A stretch of DNA of 64,000 nt from an uncultured Neglectibacter sp. (lineage in GTDB: Bacteria; Bacillota; Clostridia; Oscillospirales; Acutalibacteraceae): contig CAJFSY010000004.1 in assembly GCA_904419785.1 (NCBI GenBank), positions 1-64,000 of the forward strand, read 5' to 3'. Under the pieces are notes generated by a model. The model searched no databases. It had not been told where the DNA came from and saw nothing but the letters and a program-made list of their open reading frames with translations. Positions 36,491 to 63,429 of the stretch are shown piece by piece. How positions within the stretch are numbered: position 1 is the first letter of the stretch; every line of letters begins with the position of its first letter. The position numbers and the translations under genes were made by a program.

Positions 36491-36503
36491 GATACCAGCA
36501 AAT

Positions 36504-36639
36504 GATCTTCGGGGCAAGGTGCAATTCCTGACCGGCAGTAAAGTCTGCGAACGGAGAGGTCTCCTCTCCGCCGAACCGGTGTGATTCCGGTACCGACGGT
36601 AATCCGCGTTTCGCGGGAAAGTCCGGATGAAAGAAGATT
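36504..36639 (+). promoter_or_regulatory. FMN riboswitch (RFN element)
   Basis: The conserved RFN blocks are present in order: CTTCGGGGCAAGGTG, TTCCTGACCGGCAGTAAAG, GTCTGCGA, CCGGTGTGATTCCGGTACC and GGATGAAAGAAG, with the closing helix ATCTTC/GAAGAT. FMN binding normally favours termination. A matching terminator lies at 36682-36717, before ribU. Confidence 0.96.
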
Positions 36640-36681
36640 GGAAACGGCTGTTTTTTACCCATTCCGGTTTCATCGTAAAGG

Positions 36682-38188: not shown

Positions 38189-38194
38189 GAAAAA

Positions 38195-38446
38195 AACGCG
38201 TGGAAAAAAGAAAGTACCCCTGCCCCGTCCGGCCAGAGAGACCGCGTCACCGGCTGCAAGCGTGGTTCCGTGGCAAGCGGGGGGAAGTTCCTTTTGGAGC
38301 GGCGGCGCTGAACCTTCATAGTAGGCGCCGACGGGAAACGGTCCCGTTACAGGCCGGGAAAGGGCAGGCGCTTTTGCGGCCTGCTGAATTTGGGTGGTAC
38401 CGCGAAGAAGTCACTTCGCCCCTTATGCTGGGGGCGGAGTTTTTTT
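38195..38446 (+). promoter_or_regulatory. T-box riboswitch of pheST
   Basis: Leader of about 250 nt. Stem I shows CAGAGAG, an AAAGTA segment on the 5' side of the specifier loop and GGAAGTTCC on the 3' side, so TTC (Phe) is a likely specifier codon. The T-box core TTTGGGTGGTACCGCG ends at 38404. The terminator pairs ACTTCGCCCC (38413-38422) with GGGGCGGAGT (38431-38440), then U7. Uncharged tRNA-Phe would allow read-through into pheS. Confidence 0.93.
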
Positions 38447-50884: not shown

Positions 50885-51075
50885 TTATAAAATTGAGCTT
50901 TTAACTCAATCAATAACGACGAAGCAGTGGAAAAGATCGTTTTCAATAAAGATTTGTTCCTACCCTTCGTCCATCGGCAATCGACCCGGCTGTCCGTATG
51001 GCCTTAACCCAAAAAACTAGGTGGTCTTATAGGAAATATTTGCATGGATTTTCAGAAAGCTGTTATCCCATGACA
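50885..51075 (-). ncRNA. Structured non-coding RNA upstream of the polyamine operon
   Basis: A stretch of about 190 nt with a consensus promoter, no ribosome-binding site or frame, and strong pairing. A 5' hairpin CATGGGAT/ATCCATG is followed by a purine-rich core containing ATACGGACAGCCGGGTC. A long-range helix GACGAAG (50971-50965) / CTTCGTC (50924-50918) is extended inward by GGAA/TTCC. A final hairpin ATTGAGTT/AGCTCAAT precedes a short U-rich tail. It looks like a conserved independent RNA; the raiA motif of Firmicutes is one candidate identity, but I cannot confirm it. Alternatively it is the distal part of the spe leader. Confidence 0.6.
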
Positions 51076-58948: not shown

Positions 58949-59413
58949 TTATTCCTCCACCTCAAAGAGGGCTTCGGTTTCTACAGGCATATTCAAGGGC
59001 AGTGCGCTGACTCCCACCGCGGAACGGCTGGGCATTCCCACTTCTTCCCCGAAAAGCTGCATGAGCAGTTCCGTGCCACCGTTGGCCACCTGGGGCTGGG
59101 CATAAAAATCAGGAGTAGAAGCCACAAAGCAAGTGACTTTCACTACGTTTTTCACCTTGTCCAAGTCGCCGATCTCCCGTTTTAAAACCGCCAGCACGTT
59201 TAACATGCTGTTTTTCGCATAGTCATAGCCTTGCTCGGCAGTGACGTCTTTTCCCAAGGTGCCGGTAATGGGCGAACCAATGGAGGGGCCGCAGCCGGAA
59301 ATAAAGTACAGGTTGCCGGCAAATTTTTTCGCCGGGGCGTAAGAACCAGCCTTTGCGGGAGGCGTGGGCAGGGAAAGGCCCAGCTCCTGCAGCTTTTCTT
59401 CGATCTTGCTCAT
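58949..59413 (-). CDS. RidA family protein (YjgF/YER057c-like)
   Basis: A 154-aa protein with the YjgF fold. LYFISGCGPSIG, YDYAKNSMLNVLAVLK and GMPSRSAVGVSALPLNMPVETEAL are family segments. The Arg that binds the carboxylate in true RidA is matched by the R in PSRSAVG. RidA hydrolyses reactive enamines/imines from PLP enzymes; this longer subgroup (about 150 aa) may have another substrate. AGAAAGGAAGG precedes the ATG. A 24-bp palindrome lies upstream. Confidence 0.88.
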   Translation of the reverse strand: MSKIEEKLQELGLSLPTPPAKAGSYAPAKKFAGNLYFISGCGPSIGSPITGTLGKDVTAEQGYDYAKNSMLNVLAVLKREIGDLDKVKNVVKVTCFVASTPDFYAQPQVANGGTELLMQLFGEEVGMPSRSAVGVSALPLNMPVETEALFEVEE

Positions 59414-59589: not shown

Positions 59590-61878
59590 TCAGCCTTTCA
59601 GTTCCACACGGCGGATCTTGCCGCTGATGGTCTTAGGCAGATCATCCCGGAATTCCACGATCCGGGGATACTTATAGGGAGCGGTATGCTTTTTCACATA
59701 AGTTTGGATCTCTTTTTTCAGTTCCTCGCTCTTTTCCGTGCCCCTGGTCAACACGATGGTGGCTTTTACCACCTGACCACGCACTGGGTCCGGAGCGCTG
59801 GTGACCGCGCATTCCAACACATAGGGCAGTTCCATGATGACACTTTCGATCTCGAAGGGCCCAATGCGGTAACCGGAGGATTTGATCACGTCATCCGTAC
59901 GGCCCACATACCAGAAATAGCCGTCCTCATCCCGCCAGGCGGTGTCACCGGTGTGATAAACGCCGTCGCTCCATGCTTCTCGGGTCTTTTCCTCATCCAA
60001 ATAATAACCCATGAACAGGCCGCAGGGAGCGCCCTTATCCGTGCGCACCACGATCTCGCCCGTCTCGCCCACAGGAGCGCTGGTGCCGTCCGGCAGGATG
60101 ATATCCACATCATACAGGGGGCTGGGGACACCCATGGAACCTGACTTGGGCACGGTGCCCACAGGGTTATATACCGTCAAAGTGGTCTCAGTCTGGCCAA
60201 AGCCTTCCATCAAGGACATGCCTGTGGCCCGCTTCCACTGCTCATATACTTCCGGGTTCAAAGCCTCGCCGGCGGTAGTGGAATACTCAATGGAGGACAA
60301 ATCATATTTGGAAAGGTCCTCTTTGATGAAGAACCGGTACATGGTAGGCGGAGCGCAGAAAGTGGTGATATGGTATTTCGCAAACATGGGCAGGATGTCA
60401 TGGGCATCGAACTTGTCAAAGTCATAGGTGAAGATCGCCGCCTCGTTCATCCACTGGCCGTAATACTTGCCCCACAACGCCTTGCCCCATCCAGTATCGG
60501 AGATGGTGAAATGGAGGCCCTCCGGATTTACATTGTGCCAATACTTGGCGGTGATATAGTGGCCCAGGGCATACTTGTAGTTGTGCTCGGCAATCTTGGG
60601 ATAACCGGTGGTGCCGGAAGTGAAGAACATGAGCATGGGGTCGCTGCCGCAGGGAGCATCGGGCTTGCGCTCATAGGTGTCGGGGAAAGCTTCCACTTCC
60701 TTGTCAAAATCGTGCCAGCCCAGGCGGTTTTCGCCCACCATGATTTTCACTTGGACGGTATCGCTGTTGCGGGCCGCTTTCTCTGCCTCATCTGCGACCT
60801 GGCCGTCAGAAGTGCAAAGGATGGCTTTTACCCCAGCGGCTTTATAACGGTAATCGAAATCGTGCTCCATCAGCAGATTGGTGGCGGGGATGATGACCGC
60901 CCCCATTTTGTGCAGCGCAGTGATGACAAACCAGAACTGATAATGGCGTTTCAGAACCACCATCACCCGGTCGCCCCGCTGGATGCCCAAGCTTTCTAAA
61001 TAATTGGCAGTTTTAGAGGACCAGCGGCTTATATCGGAGAAGGTGAAACGCCGCTCGGTCTTATCCTTGGCCACATGGAGCATGGCCAGCTTATCGGGAC
61101 ACTTTTCCGCCAGTTTATCTACAATGTCAAAGGCAAAGTTGAACTTTTCTTCGTTTTGGAACTGGATGCCATTCAAGATGCCGTTTTCATCCACAGTGGT
61201 CTTTACAAAGGGAGAAGAAACCGTCTCCCGGTCCTGACGGGCCAGCTTGGCGTCGATCAGCTTCTGGAAGCGGTCCTGCTCCGGAGCAAACTCTTCAGCG
61301 CCTTTCAGCACGATGGCATAGATCTGGCACTCAGCGCCCTCAGTGGCGATCATACCATGAGGTGTGCTGGAATTATAATAGATTGTGTCGCCTTCGTGAA
61401 GCACCTCCACATGGTTGCCCACCTGCATCTTCATAGCGCCTTTTACCACGATGTCAAACTCCTGGCCCACATGGGTGGAGAGCTTGATGGCCACGTTCTG
61501 TTCTGCCTCAGAATAGGGCATGGTGACAAAGAAGGGCTCGGCGGTCTTATTCTTGAACAGGGGAGCCATATTCAGATATTTAAAGCCCTGCCGCCGGGTG
61601 ATGGGCAAGCCATCGCCCTTTCGGGAAATGGTATAGCTGGAAAGAGTAGGGCTGACGCCTTTGATCAAGTCGGTGGGGTCGATGCCAAAACGCTGGGCGC
61701 ACTTGTAAATAAACGTAAAACTGAAATCCTTTTCCCCGGCCTCGCACTGCTCATATTCCTCCCGGCTCACACCGGTACACTTGGCCATTTCCTCTTCCGA
61801 AAGGCCGGTGATCTCCCGCATGGTGCGGATACGTTCCGCCACCTCCGCAAGTTGTGTTTTCAAATCGGTTTTTTCCAT
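59590..61878 (-). CDS. XRE HTH - cupin - AMP-forming acyl-CoA synthetase fusion
   Basis: A 762-aa three-part protein. Residues 5-75 form an XRE helix-turn-helix (MREITGLSEEEMAKCTGVSR). Residues about 95-200 are a cupin (VGQEFDIVVKGAMKM, then GDTIYYNSSTPHGM). Residues about 240-762 are an acyl-adenylate enzyme: FFTSGTTGYPK (P-loop), EGFGQTETT (A5), YHTGDTAWRDEDGYFWYVGR (A7/A8) and the catalytic Lys in PKTISGKIRR. It resembles medium-chain/branched-chain acyl-CoA synthetases. It lies behind a T-box leader. AAAGGAG precedes the ATG. Confidence 0.92.
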   Translation of the reverse strand: MEKTDLKTQLAEVAERIRTMREITGLSEEEMAKCTGVSREEYEQCEAGEKDFSFTFIYKCAQRFGIDPTDLIKGVSPTLSSYTISRKGDGLPITRRQGFKYLNMAPLFKNKTAEPFFVTMPYSEAEQNVAIKLSTHVGQEFDIVVKGAMKMQVGNHVEVLHEGDTIYYNSSTPHGMIATEGAECQIYAIVLKGAEEFAPEQDRFQKLIDAKLARQDRETVSSPFVKTTVDENGILNGIQFQNEEKFNFAFDIVDKLAEKCPDKLAMLHVAKDKTERRFTFSDISRWSSKTANYLESLGIQRGDRVMVVLKRHYQFWFVITALHKMGAVIIPATNLLMEHDFDYRYKAAGVKAILCTSDGQVADEAEKAARNSDTVQVKIMVGENRLGWHDFDKEVEAFPDTYERKPDAPCGSDPMLMFFTSGTTGYPKIAEHNYKYALGHYITAKYWHNVNPEGLHFTISDTGWGKALWGKYYGQWMNEAAIFTYDFDKFDAHDILPMFAKYHITTFCAPPTMYRFFIKEDLSKYDLSSIEYSTTAGEALNPEVYEQWKRATGMSLMEGFGQTETTLTVYNPVGTVPKSGSMGVPSPLYDVDIILPDGTSAPVGETGEIVVRTDKGAPCGLFMGYYLDEEKTREAWSDGVYHTGDTAWRDEDGYFWYVGRTDDVIKSSGYRIGPFEIESVIMELPYVLECAVTSAPDPVRGQVVKATIVLTRGTEKSEELKKEIQTYVKKHTAPYKYPRIVEFRDDLPKTISGKIRRVELKG

Positions 61879-61991
61879 GAGTCTGCTCCTTTCTGGTAAC
61901 TATTCCGGCGCTGGCCAGGGGCTGCCGCATGTTACAGCAGCTCCTGCGAGTTTGGCTTTAGAAGCCGCCAAACATCGTACCGGGGCAAAAA

Positions 61992-62296
61992 TAAAAAAGT
62001 CCGTCTCAAAGAACTCTCCTTGAGACGGACTAAAAATCCGCGGTACCACTCAAATTGCGCTTTCACGCCACCTCGTCGGGCTCCAGCAAGCCCTATGCAC
62101 TAACGCAGCATACACGGGAGACGCCTACTCTCTGGTTTTTCAGATTTGGGGCCTCCGGCTCAGAAGGGATTGGTCCCTCAGCGCCTTCCACCGGCTCGCA
62201 GCAACCGCCGGCTCTCTGCAGGAAGGTCAGCCAGACCGTCTTCGTCGTAGCCTTTCCTTTCGCTTTTCTAAAACAAAGCTTATTAATTTGTGGTGT
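61992..62296 (-). promoter_or_regulatory. T-box riboswitch of the acyl-CoA synthetase gene
   Basis: Leader of about 300 nt. Stem I has CAGAGAG, GGTTGCTGCGAGCC and the kink-turn TGAGC. The T-box core TTTGAGTGGTACCGCGG lies at 62054-62038. The terminator pairs AGTCCGTCTCAA (62031-62020) with TTGAGACGGACT (62010-61999), then U6. The specifier is not certain: the 3' side reads GAGGGACCAATCC, where ATC (Ile) aligns best with the pheS leader but GAC or ACC are possible. Finding this in front of an acyl-CoA synthetase, not a tRNA synthetase or transporter, is unusual. Confidence 0.93.
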
Positions 62297-62302
62297 ACAA
62301 TT

Positions 62303-62331
62303 AGGTTACACCAATTTTGAAAGAATGTCAA
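62303..62331 (-). promoter_or_regulatory. Promoter of the acyl-CoA synthetase T-box
   Basis: Minus strand TTGACA (62331-62326), 17-bp spacer, TAACCT (62308-62303). It starts about 20 bp after the dehydrogenase stop. Confidence 0.65.
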
Positions 62332-62352: not shown

Positions 62353-63429
62353 TTATCCTGCAAAGCTCTGGCTATATTCTTCCAGCTCCTTCATGCCTTC
62401 CACCAGCATCTCTACCGTCACCGGATAAGGCCACTTGCGCACATCGATACCCTTTAAGGCCTTTTCCGCTACGGCAGTCAAGTCCTGGGGCGTGGCGTGG
62501 ATATCCGCAAGCTTTGTGGGCAAGCCGATGGACCTGTTGAATCTCATTACCTTGTCCCGTTCCTCATACTGTTTATCTACGGTGAGCATGGCCAAGATAC
62601 CATAAGAGACCACCTCTCCATGCAGGTGATGATGTTCCTCGGTGCTGGGCAGAATGGTAAAGCCGTTGTAAATGGCGTGGGCCATGCCAGTGGTGTAGTC
62701 CACCTGCACAAAGTTGGAAACCAGCCCAGTGGAAACGATGATGCCCAGAATCACCTCGGTCAGCTCATTGGTGACACGGTGGGCTTTGCAATCCTCCATG
62801 GCCTGATGGCCCCACCGCAGGATGGGCTCGGCGCACATAGTGCTCAAAGCGATGCCCATTGCGTCGGAGTGGGCAGGCACATCCCCCCGGGAAGAAGTAG
62901 TGCACTCAAAGTGTTTTGCCATGGTGTCCCCCATGCCGGCCCATAGGTATTTCACCGGGGCGTCGGCAATGATTTGGGGATCGATGAAAATATGATTGGG
63001 GGGGATTTTTGAAAAGGAATATTCCCGCAAGCTGCCGTCCGGATGGTATAGAATTCCTAGGCTGGTGCAGGAAGCGCATGTAGAAGCAATGGTGGGAAAG
63101 GTGAAGAAAGGCCGGTGGGTCATATGGGAAAGCACCTTGCAAGTATCAATGGCCTTGCCGCCTCCCACAGCGAAGATCATATCCGCGTCTTTTACCTTGG
63201 GAATGAGCATCTGGATGTTTTCCACCGAAGATTCTCCGCCATACCAGAAGGTGCCGGTAATCTCTATATCCGAGCCTTCCACAGCTTTACGGATTTTCTC
63301 CTCCGCGGCGGCTAGAGCGTGTTTTCCGCCGATAACCGCGGCTTTCTTCCCAAAAGGGGCGCACACCGCGGGGATATTAGTATAGGCGTCATCGCCAATG
63401 GTATAGCCGGGGAACAATGTTTCTTGCAT
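62353..63429 (-). CDS. Iron-containing alcohol dehydrogenase family, glycerol dehydrogenase-like
   Basis: A 358-aa enzyme. The NAD-binding segment VGGGKAIDTCKVL and FPTIASTCASCTSLG are as in GldA-type proteins. Metal ligands fit: the Asp in GMGDTMAKHFE and histidines in YTTGMAHAIYNG and HHHLHGEVVSYG. It would interconvert an alcohol and a carbonyl with NAD(H); the substrate is open. The stop of the upstream transporter gene is 2 bp before its ATG, so the two are co-transcribed and sit just upstream of the T-box unit. Confidence 0.86.
   Translation of the reverse strand: MQETLFPGYTIGDDAYTNIPAVCAPFGKKAAVIGGKHALAAAEEKIRKAVEGSDIEITGTFWYGGESSVENIQMLIPKVKDADMIFAVGGGKAIDTCKVLSHMTHRPFFTFPTIASTCASCTSLGILYHPDGSLREYSFSKIPPNHIFIDPQIIADAPVKYLWAGMGDTMAKHFECTTSSRGDVPAHSDAMGIALSTMCAEPILRWGHQAMEDCKAHRVTNELTEVILGIIVSTGLVSNFVQVDYTTGMAHAIYNGFTILPSTEEHHHLHGEVVSYGILAMLTVDKQYEERDKVMRFNRSIGLPTKLADIHATPQDLTAVAEKALKGIDVRKWPYPVTVEMLVEGMKELEEYSQSFAG

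Follow-up and report, generated by a model that had tools for sequence, protein, structure and literature searches.

A 64,000-nucleotide stretch of DNA from an uncultured Neglectibacter sp. (contig CAJFSY010000004.1, positions 1 to 64,000; here called the window) carries, on its reverse strand, a full-length T-box riboswitch with an isoleucine specifier directly upstream of a gene for an acyl-CoA ligase. Our best explanation, which we hold with considerable confidence, is that isoleucine starvation induces the synthesis of 2-methylbutyryl-CoA for reductive carboxylation to isoleucine. Specifically, a transcriptional T-box riboswitch would read tRNA-Ile through its AUC specifier, and uncharged tRNA-Ile would hold the antiterminator, allowing the ligase gene to be transcribed. 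The AMP-forming ligase, which is fused to helix-turn-helix (HTH) and cupin domains, would activate gut-derived 2-methylbutyrate to 2-methylbutyryl-CoA; a VorB-type 2-oxoacid:ferredoxin oxidoreductase would reductively carboxylate this product to 3-methyl-2-oxopentanoate; and a branched-chain aminotransferase (BCAT) would turn the latter into isoleucine. In relatives with tandem ligase genes, a second copy under a GUA (valine) T-box would do likewise, taking isobutyrate to valine. The substrate, the direction in which the oxidoreductase runs, the induction, and what the HTH-cupin part does are predictions from sequence.

A full-length T-box leader upstream of the ligase gene

The initial annotation of this stretch described a full T-box leader, with promoter, stem I, core, and terminator, upstream of an acyl-adenylate enzyme gene. 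The following elements were located.

62326..62331, reverse strand: -35-like hexamer TTGACA (exact; read from the letters, absent from the list of the consensus scan)
62308-62303, reverse strand: -10 hexamer TAACCT at 17-nt spacing (weak)
62018..62257, reverse strand: T-box riboswitch (RF00230), full length (cmscan; recovered again in the search of the window's own genome)
62250..62252, reverse strand: 5' strand of the stem I base, GGC, pairing with GCC at 62159-62157 (read from the letters; compensatory changes in relatives)
62240..62243, reverse strand: 4-bp helix below the specifier, GAAG pairing with CUUC at 62166-62163 (read from the letters and relatives)
62213..62217, reverse strand: AGAGA element of distal stem I (read from the letters; aligns with the Rfam AGAGA)
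62168..62170, reverse strand: specifier codon AUC, isoleucine (parser script; conserved among relatives)
62042..62048, reverse strand: T-box bulge UGGUACC (Rfam alignment)
62020..62053, reverse strand: antiterminator, 62053-62049 with 62024-62020 and 62041-62037 with 62029-62025 (by eye, consensus structure)
61998..62031, reverse strand: intrinsic terminator with 15 pairs, a loop of 4, and a T tail (terminator scan, folding)

A cmscan search of a 561-base stretch matched the leader to RF00230 over model positions 1-219 (76 bits, E 1e-16), and this whole-model match, together with the 15-pair terminator, bore out the annotated leader. The antiterminator overlapped the 5' arm of the terminator, with the UGGN bulge and the competing hairpins both present, and the folding of the leader beat 100 of 100 shuffles (z -3.27). 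By the known T-box mechanism, the UGGU of the bulge would pair with the ACCA of the tRNA 3' end. tRNA-Ile has A as its discriminator base, with which the U of the bulge would pair. The claimed promoter stood only in part: it was half convincing, with the -35 hexamer standing alone beside a poor -10 hexamer.

The leader did not match the Rfam model in every respect. The score of 76 bits was below the Rfam gathering score of 93, and the leader was therefore not listed by the whole-window Rfam search. When aligned, the window leader had neither AGUA nor GAA, the letters that mark the S-turn (loop E) side of the specifier loop in the Rfam consensus, and their absence may account for the low score. 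By our own reading, these letters were also missing from this genome's ileS leader, and we therefore treated their absence as a local variant. S-turn letters are common in T-boxes but not universal and are absent in ultrashort forms.

In its other parts, the window leader shared with known T-boxes, such as ileS leaders, a stem I with AGAGA, an antiterminator with a UGGN bulge, and a terminator. Its specifier lay one base above the 4-bp helix, as in ileS leaders, and the one in the window's genome likewise read AUC. It differed from a typical T-box in preceding an acyl-CoA ligase gene and in the specifier loop described above. A further difference was found in the tandem loci of relatives, in which two T-boxes with different codons accompanied two paralogues.

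The specifier codon and its calibration within the genome

The script ranked AUC first for the window leader, at 62170-62168, in agreement with the ATC specifier that the initial annotation had offered tentatively. A covariance search of the same genome at E 1 yielded 13 T-box matches, and most of the others preceded aminoacyl-tRNA synthetase and amino-acid synthesis genes. For six of the eight leaders with a recognisable product, the codon that the script ranked first was the codon of that product (pheS, UUC; leuA, CUC; cysE, UGC; trpB-like, UGG; ileS, AUC; thrS, ACC). Other leaders of the genome were read by the script as CUG (L001) and UGG (L002). The own-genome codons were first read by eye with the genes known, and codons that fitted were noted in that way; the script check used the scoring developed for relatives with a slightly wider T-box motif, and the gene names were our readings of the translations.

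The ligase protein

The protein that the initial annotation called an acyl-CoA synthetase was not a plain synthetase: HTH and cupin domains preceded its AMP-binding domain. The coding features are listed below.

59590..61878, reverse strand: HTH-cupin-acyl-CoA ligase, 762 residues (open reading frame, domain search)
61651..61836, reverse strand: HTH domain, residues 15-76, PF12844 (domain search)
61312..61485, reverse strand: cupin domain, residues 132-189, PF07883 (domain search)
59617..61113, reverse strand: AMP-binding (residues 256-626, PF00501) and AMP-binding_C (residues 676-754, PF13193) domains (domain search)
60484..60486, reverse strand: Gly465 codon (comparison of ligase columns)
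60472..60474, reverse strand: Trp469 codon, aligned with MacsMa Trp259 (3etc alignment)

The closest solved structure by sequence was 3etc (622 bits, aligned over residues 240-761), which is MacsMa, the medium-chain acyl-CoA synthetase of Methanosarcina acetivorans (PMC10455477). The Trp259 match was made with a chain-to-paper numbering offset of 23, derived from Gly459/Tyr460/Lys461 and Tyr525/Tyr527 named in that paper. As described in PMC10455477, MacsMa prefers 2-methylbutyrate. The window protein resembled it by sequence in the whole ligase part, in the Trp259 motif, and in the Gly at the position of residue 465; it differed in that MacsMa is an archaeal 580-residue chain with no HTH-cupin part. 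The best NCBIfam match was the MbcS equivalog NF047394. Staphylococcus aureus MbcS is described in PMC10026030 as selective for 2-methylbutyrate and isobutyrate, which are Ile- and Val-type branched acids, with isovalerate a poor substrate. The HTH-cupin part of the window protein may serve autoregulation or a second control by acid or acyl-CoA sensing.

Conservation of the leader and specifier among relatives

A search at E 1e-100 recovered the ligase, with shorter forms and paralogues counted, from 51 of 60 relatives; the species collection yielded at least 595 loci, of which 80 were retained. We parsed 150 ligase copies, which gave 142 distinct copies after 7 identical rows were merged and one copy that was too short (L085) was dropped. 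An accepted specifier, defined as a reading with a score of at least 15, was obtained for 101 of the 142, with AUC in 84 and GUA in 17. Among the 126 long copies, there were 82 AUC and 17 GUA leaders, 18 copies with no T-box found, 6 with a cut leader, and one each that was broken, ambiguous, or unreadable; the 16 short copies comprised 2 with AUC and 14 with no T-box found. The initial annotation had reasoned that a fold lacking a specifier loop, or a specifier varying at random among orthologues, would speak against it. Instead, the leader has a stem I with a specifier, and the relatives with an accepted reading carried one of two codons.

These counts depended on how the leaders were parsed. 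A strict first parser read ATC in 81 copies, GTA in 14, some other triplet (10 kinds in all) in 12, and nothing in 36, and a relaxed 5' motif converted most of the odd readings to ATC or GTA. Seven copies were still odd with the relaxed parser (L027, L031, L057, L080, L123, L139, and L143), four of them scoring below 15. AUC was set by eye from the printed leaders of L057, L027, L156, and L072. We set aside L031 as broken (an insertion follows the leader), L123 as unreadable (the 3' strand of stem I is missing), and L139 as ambiguous; the last reads either AUC with helix AGGG/CCCU or CUA (Leu) with helix GUUG/CAGC. Contig ends cut L080 and five more copies, L143 was counted as having none, and L043, itself cut by a contig end, was counted as short with none. 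A phenylalanine specifier that we had suspected by eye in L017 and L044 was rejected: an insertion had misled the eye, and the parsed codon was AUC.

Because the parser required the T-box motif and the 4-bp helix, pairing could be tested independently only on the outer and distal helices. We chose 45 leaders, out of 91 that had distinct ends, and counted stem I pairing in them: 96.4% of cells were paired, and 11 of 13 pairs had changed on both sides. None of 500 shuffles scored as high, and no slid register came near. The helix below the specifier took the forms GAAG/CUUC, GAGG/CCUC, GGAG/CUCC, and AAGG/CCUU in relatives. The conservation of stem I with compensatory changes speaks against a chance origin of the leader. 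When 12 loci were searched with Rfam at the gathering score, T-boxes were listed in four (L114, L101, L088, and L122). Those in L114, L101, and L088 were directly upstream of ligase copies, and the L122 T-box, at 460-693, was not the ligase leader. The remaining ligase leaders of the 12 loci fell below the gathering cut-off, like the window leader.

Tandem isoleucine and valine copies and the residue that tracks them

A second ligase copy adjoined the GUA copy in 16 of the 17 GUA loci, and the neighbour read AUC in 15 of them; in L082 the leader of the neighbouring copy was cut, and in L117 the GUA copy stood alone. In a FastTree phylogeny with local supports, GUA required one change among the AUC- and GUA-labelled rows and two against all rows. 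One codon for Ile and one for Val correspond to the pair of substrates described as preferred in this enzyme family.

Residue 465 was the only ligase column that fully separated the classes, with Gly in all 84 AUC copies and Ala in all 17 GUA copies; the GUA class, however, has a single origin. Residue 465 sits in the motif DTGW[G/A]KALW, four residues before Trp469, the counterpart of the MacsMa pocket residue Trp259, and a larger side chain at this position would suit the smaller C4 acid. Ala465 also occurred in two copies of the window's own genus without a T-box (L038 and L039), and a third T-box-less copy, L035, kept Gly. The leader of L039 (genome G017) resembled a T-box without its middle, with the start and a terminator-like hairpin left. 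The second ligase of the window's own genome, L127, had no T-box that we could find, a separate HTH-cupin gene just upstream, and Ala at 465; because of this Ala, it may serve isobutyrate.

Of the 17 GUA loci, 15 had a VOR alpha gene within the fetched sequence, and 16 had a gene for a P-loop ATPase. Locus L122 ended inside the ATPase gene, and L117 had neither gene. The fetched flanks were 1.5 kb on either side for loci of the genome search, whereas most of the remaining loci came with as much as 5 kb; for the window's own genus they were 1.5 kb, with 5 kb for four named loci. Three single-AUC loci (L089, L138, and L141) also carried the VOR operon, and the other single-AUC loci showed none within these flanks. 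In the window's genome, a VOR operon (L149) held the ATPase gene, a 68-residue ferredoxin-like open reading frame, and the alpha, beta, and gamma genes together. Its alpha subunit was VorB according to NCBIfam (NF005507, 557 bits versus a cut-off of 399).

Gene content of the isoleucine and valine pathways

A profile search of the window's genome, which is 98% complete, found no match to IlvC and no IlvD above the cut-off; an IlvD-like protein scored 519 bits versus 618. An acetolactate-synthase family protein was present. Both a VOR-type oxidoreductase and a BCAT were found in this genome, the latter being the sole Aminotran_4 match (TIGR01123, 328 bits versus a cut-off of 250, over a 242-residue stretch). 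Of the 28 same-genus genomes, 20, some of them less than 90% complete, gave no IlvC match. The 8 same-genus genomes with IlvC were the same 8 that had IlvD above the cut-off, and they carried ligase copies too: the specifier was AUC in five (G010, G018, G019, G022, and G026), the leader was broken in G020, no T-box was found in G005, and G024 was without a fetched locus. Among 297 genomes of the order, 96 had a close ligase (at least 850 bits), and 69 of these were without IlvC, versus 53 of the 201 others (Fisher p 1.4e-13, a test that treats related genomes as independent).

Neighbouring genes and other RNA elements

Two neighbours of the ligase locus were considered as partner genes and rejected. 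Relatives of the RidA gene (58949-59413) were found in only three of the searched loci, and relatives of the glycerol-dehydrogenase-like gene (62353-63429) in only four, the window's own locus included in both cases.

Other RNA elements were noted in and around the window. The only T-box in the window at the Rfam gathering score was at 38192-38426 on the forward strand (109.6 bits), upstream of a pheS-like gene and with specifier UUC. Just past the window's end, on the reverse strand at 64745-65006 of the same contig (G000:C4), a 115-bit T-box (L124) with specifier CUG (Leu) precedes a membrane-protein-like gene, whose 3' part is window 63998-63432, and then the glycerol-dehydrogenase-like gene; the membrane-protein-like gene had no Pfam or NCBIfam match. 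Two further T-boxes of this genome, L012 and L011, were upstream of MazG-like and acetyltransferase-like genes (named by reading). An FMN riboswitch was found at window 36501-36642 on the forward strand (96.7 bits). A match to SpF59_sRNA, a family named from Streptococcus, was found at 50974-51027 on the reverse strand of this clostridial DNA (68 bits versus a cut-off of 37.2).

Discussion

Robinson and Allison in 1969, and Allison and Peel in 1971, are said to have described how rumen anaerobes make amino acids by a branched-acid route. According to studies from 1966 to 1971 cited in PMC7356843, rumen bacteria use branched volatile acids to make Leu, Ile, and Val, and that paper describes 2-methylbutyrate and isobutyrate as precursors of Ile and Val in rumen fermentation. 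The route proposed here would use the same conversions. It differs in having a candidate ligase gene and regulator, as the passages of PMC7356843 on the branched-acid route assign neither a gene nor a regulator to the activating step. The initial annotation had suggested that 2-methylbutyrate might be activated to its CoA ester and reductively carboxylated on the way to isoleucine. This suggestion gained support from the nearest enzymes, the VorB linkage in many relatives, the lack of an IlvC match and of an IlvD above the cut-off, and the valine paralogue with its pocket change. The HTH-cupin fusion, the valine paralogue, and the missing ilv genes are additions to that annotation.

A literature search of open papers found no published link of a T-box to an acyl-CoA ligase, which is no proof of novelty, and the main text of PMC2494555, supplements left out, does not mention acyl-CoA, CoA ligase, or AMP-binding. 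The nearest printed analogue that we met was Geobacter iorAB-paaK, for which a conserved 5' element is predicted and given the label tryptophan (PMC2700814). There, too, a CoA ligase and a 2-oxoacid oxidoreductase are listed under amino-acid regulation, but the acid is an aryl acid, the ligase belongs to another family, and the table footnotes call only the leuA element a T-box. In the window's own genome, two PaaK-like ligases, below the equivalog cut-off, flank IorA and a small IorB-like gene (L150, G000:C15:17000-36000). About 10 kb away, a UGG (Trp) T-box lies upstream of two genes, one aminotransferase-like and the other TrpS-like. This locus is a possible aryl-acetate counterpart.

The chief rival to isoleucine synthesis is that the ligase supplies 2-methylbutyryl-CoA (or isobutyryl-CoA) as branched fatty-acid primers when Ile (or Val), their normal source, is short. 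Such priming is the role of MbcS, the nearest NCBIfam family (PMC10026030), and an Ile or Val T-box would suit a need for primers as well. We consider this unlikely as the main role, given the VorB-type operon linked in most GUA loci, the many carriers without IlvC, and the own-genome T-boxes, which mostly precede genes for tRNA charging and amino-acid synthesis; the two uses could coexist. It is considerably less probable that the ligase activates propionate (or acetate), with reductive carboxylation to 2-oxobutyrate feeding the ordinary isoleucine pathway. An Ile specifier would fit that route, and MacsMa adenylates propionate, although as a less favourable substrate (PMC10455477). This route needs the IlvC and IlvD that the window's genome appears to lack, and it leaves the Val-specified paralogue unexplained. 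The least probable reading, by a small step, makes the T-box either a relic or a signal of starvation in general, with the gene serving another purpose, for example acid detoxification or catabolism. Some relatives do keep the ligase gene without a T-box; however, AUC and the stem I pairing were kept with compensatory changes across many genera, and the change of specifier to GUA coincided with the pocket change.

Several observations weigh against isoleucine synthesis from 2-methylbutyrate, the explanation that we prefer, or against parts of it. The script misread two of the eight calibration leaders, both with an imperfect helix below the codon: tyrS was read as ACT (by eye UAC) and an asnB-like leader as CGA (by eye AAC). 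The window protein scored 425.8 bits versus the MbcS cut-off of 850, which makes it a relative and not a member. No T-box was found in 18 of the 126 long copies; 12 of these 18 belong to a 13-row clade that includes Ruminococcus flavefaciens, so other control must exist in that clade. Within the fetched flanks, no VOR operon was seen beside the ligase in the window's own genus; the window genome's own operon is on another contig. IlvC was also present in 27 of the 96 close-ligase genomes, and the branched-acid route is therefore not always the sole one. Finally, residue 465 changed independently only three times and the independent-pairs test was not significant (p 0.25-0.5), so the link between this residue and the specifier is not statistically proven.

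On balance, the data probably describe a widespread Clostridia regulon of tandem branched-acid ligases, each with its own T-box, in which the AUC or GUA codon would report the substrate, 2-methylbutyrate or isobutyrate, and Gly-to-Ala at 465 would be a specificity determinant. Such a regulon would be a tRNA-controlled form of the rumen and gut branched-acid route, and the ligases would be a candidate gene family, with built-in substrate labels, for its activating step. A riboswitch codon can thus suggest the substrate of an enzyme that sequence otherwise leaves as "acyl-CoA ligase," and a single residue, 465, is a candidate for switching the enzyme between C5 and C4 branched acids. A named strain, Neglectibacter timonensis SN17 (L044), carries a member of the family, which makes the question directly testable. 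If isoleucine is made in this way, a bacterium seemingly without the usual isoleucine enzymes would sense isoleucine shortage by an RNA switch, and the finding may bear on cross-feeding among gut bacteria, some of which would depend on branched acids released by others.

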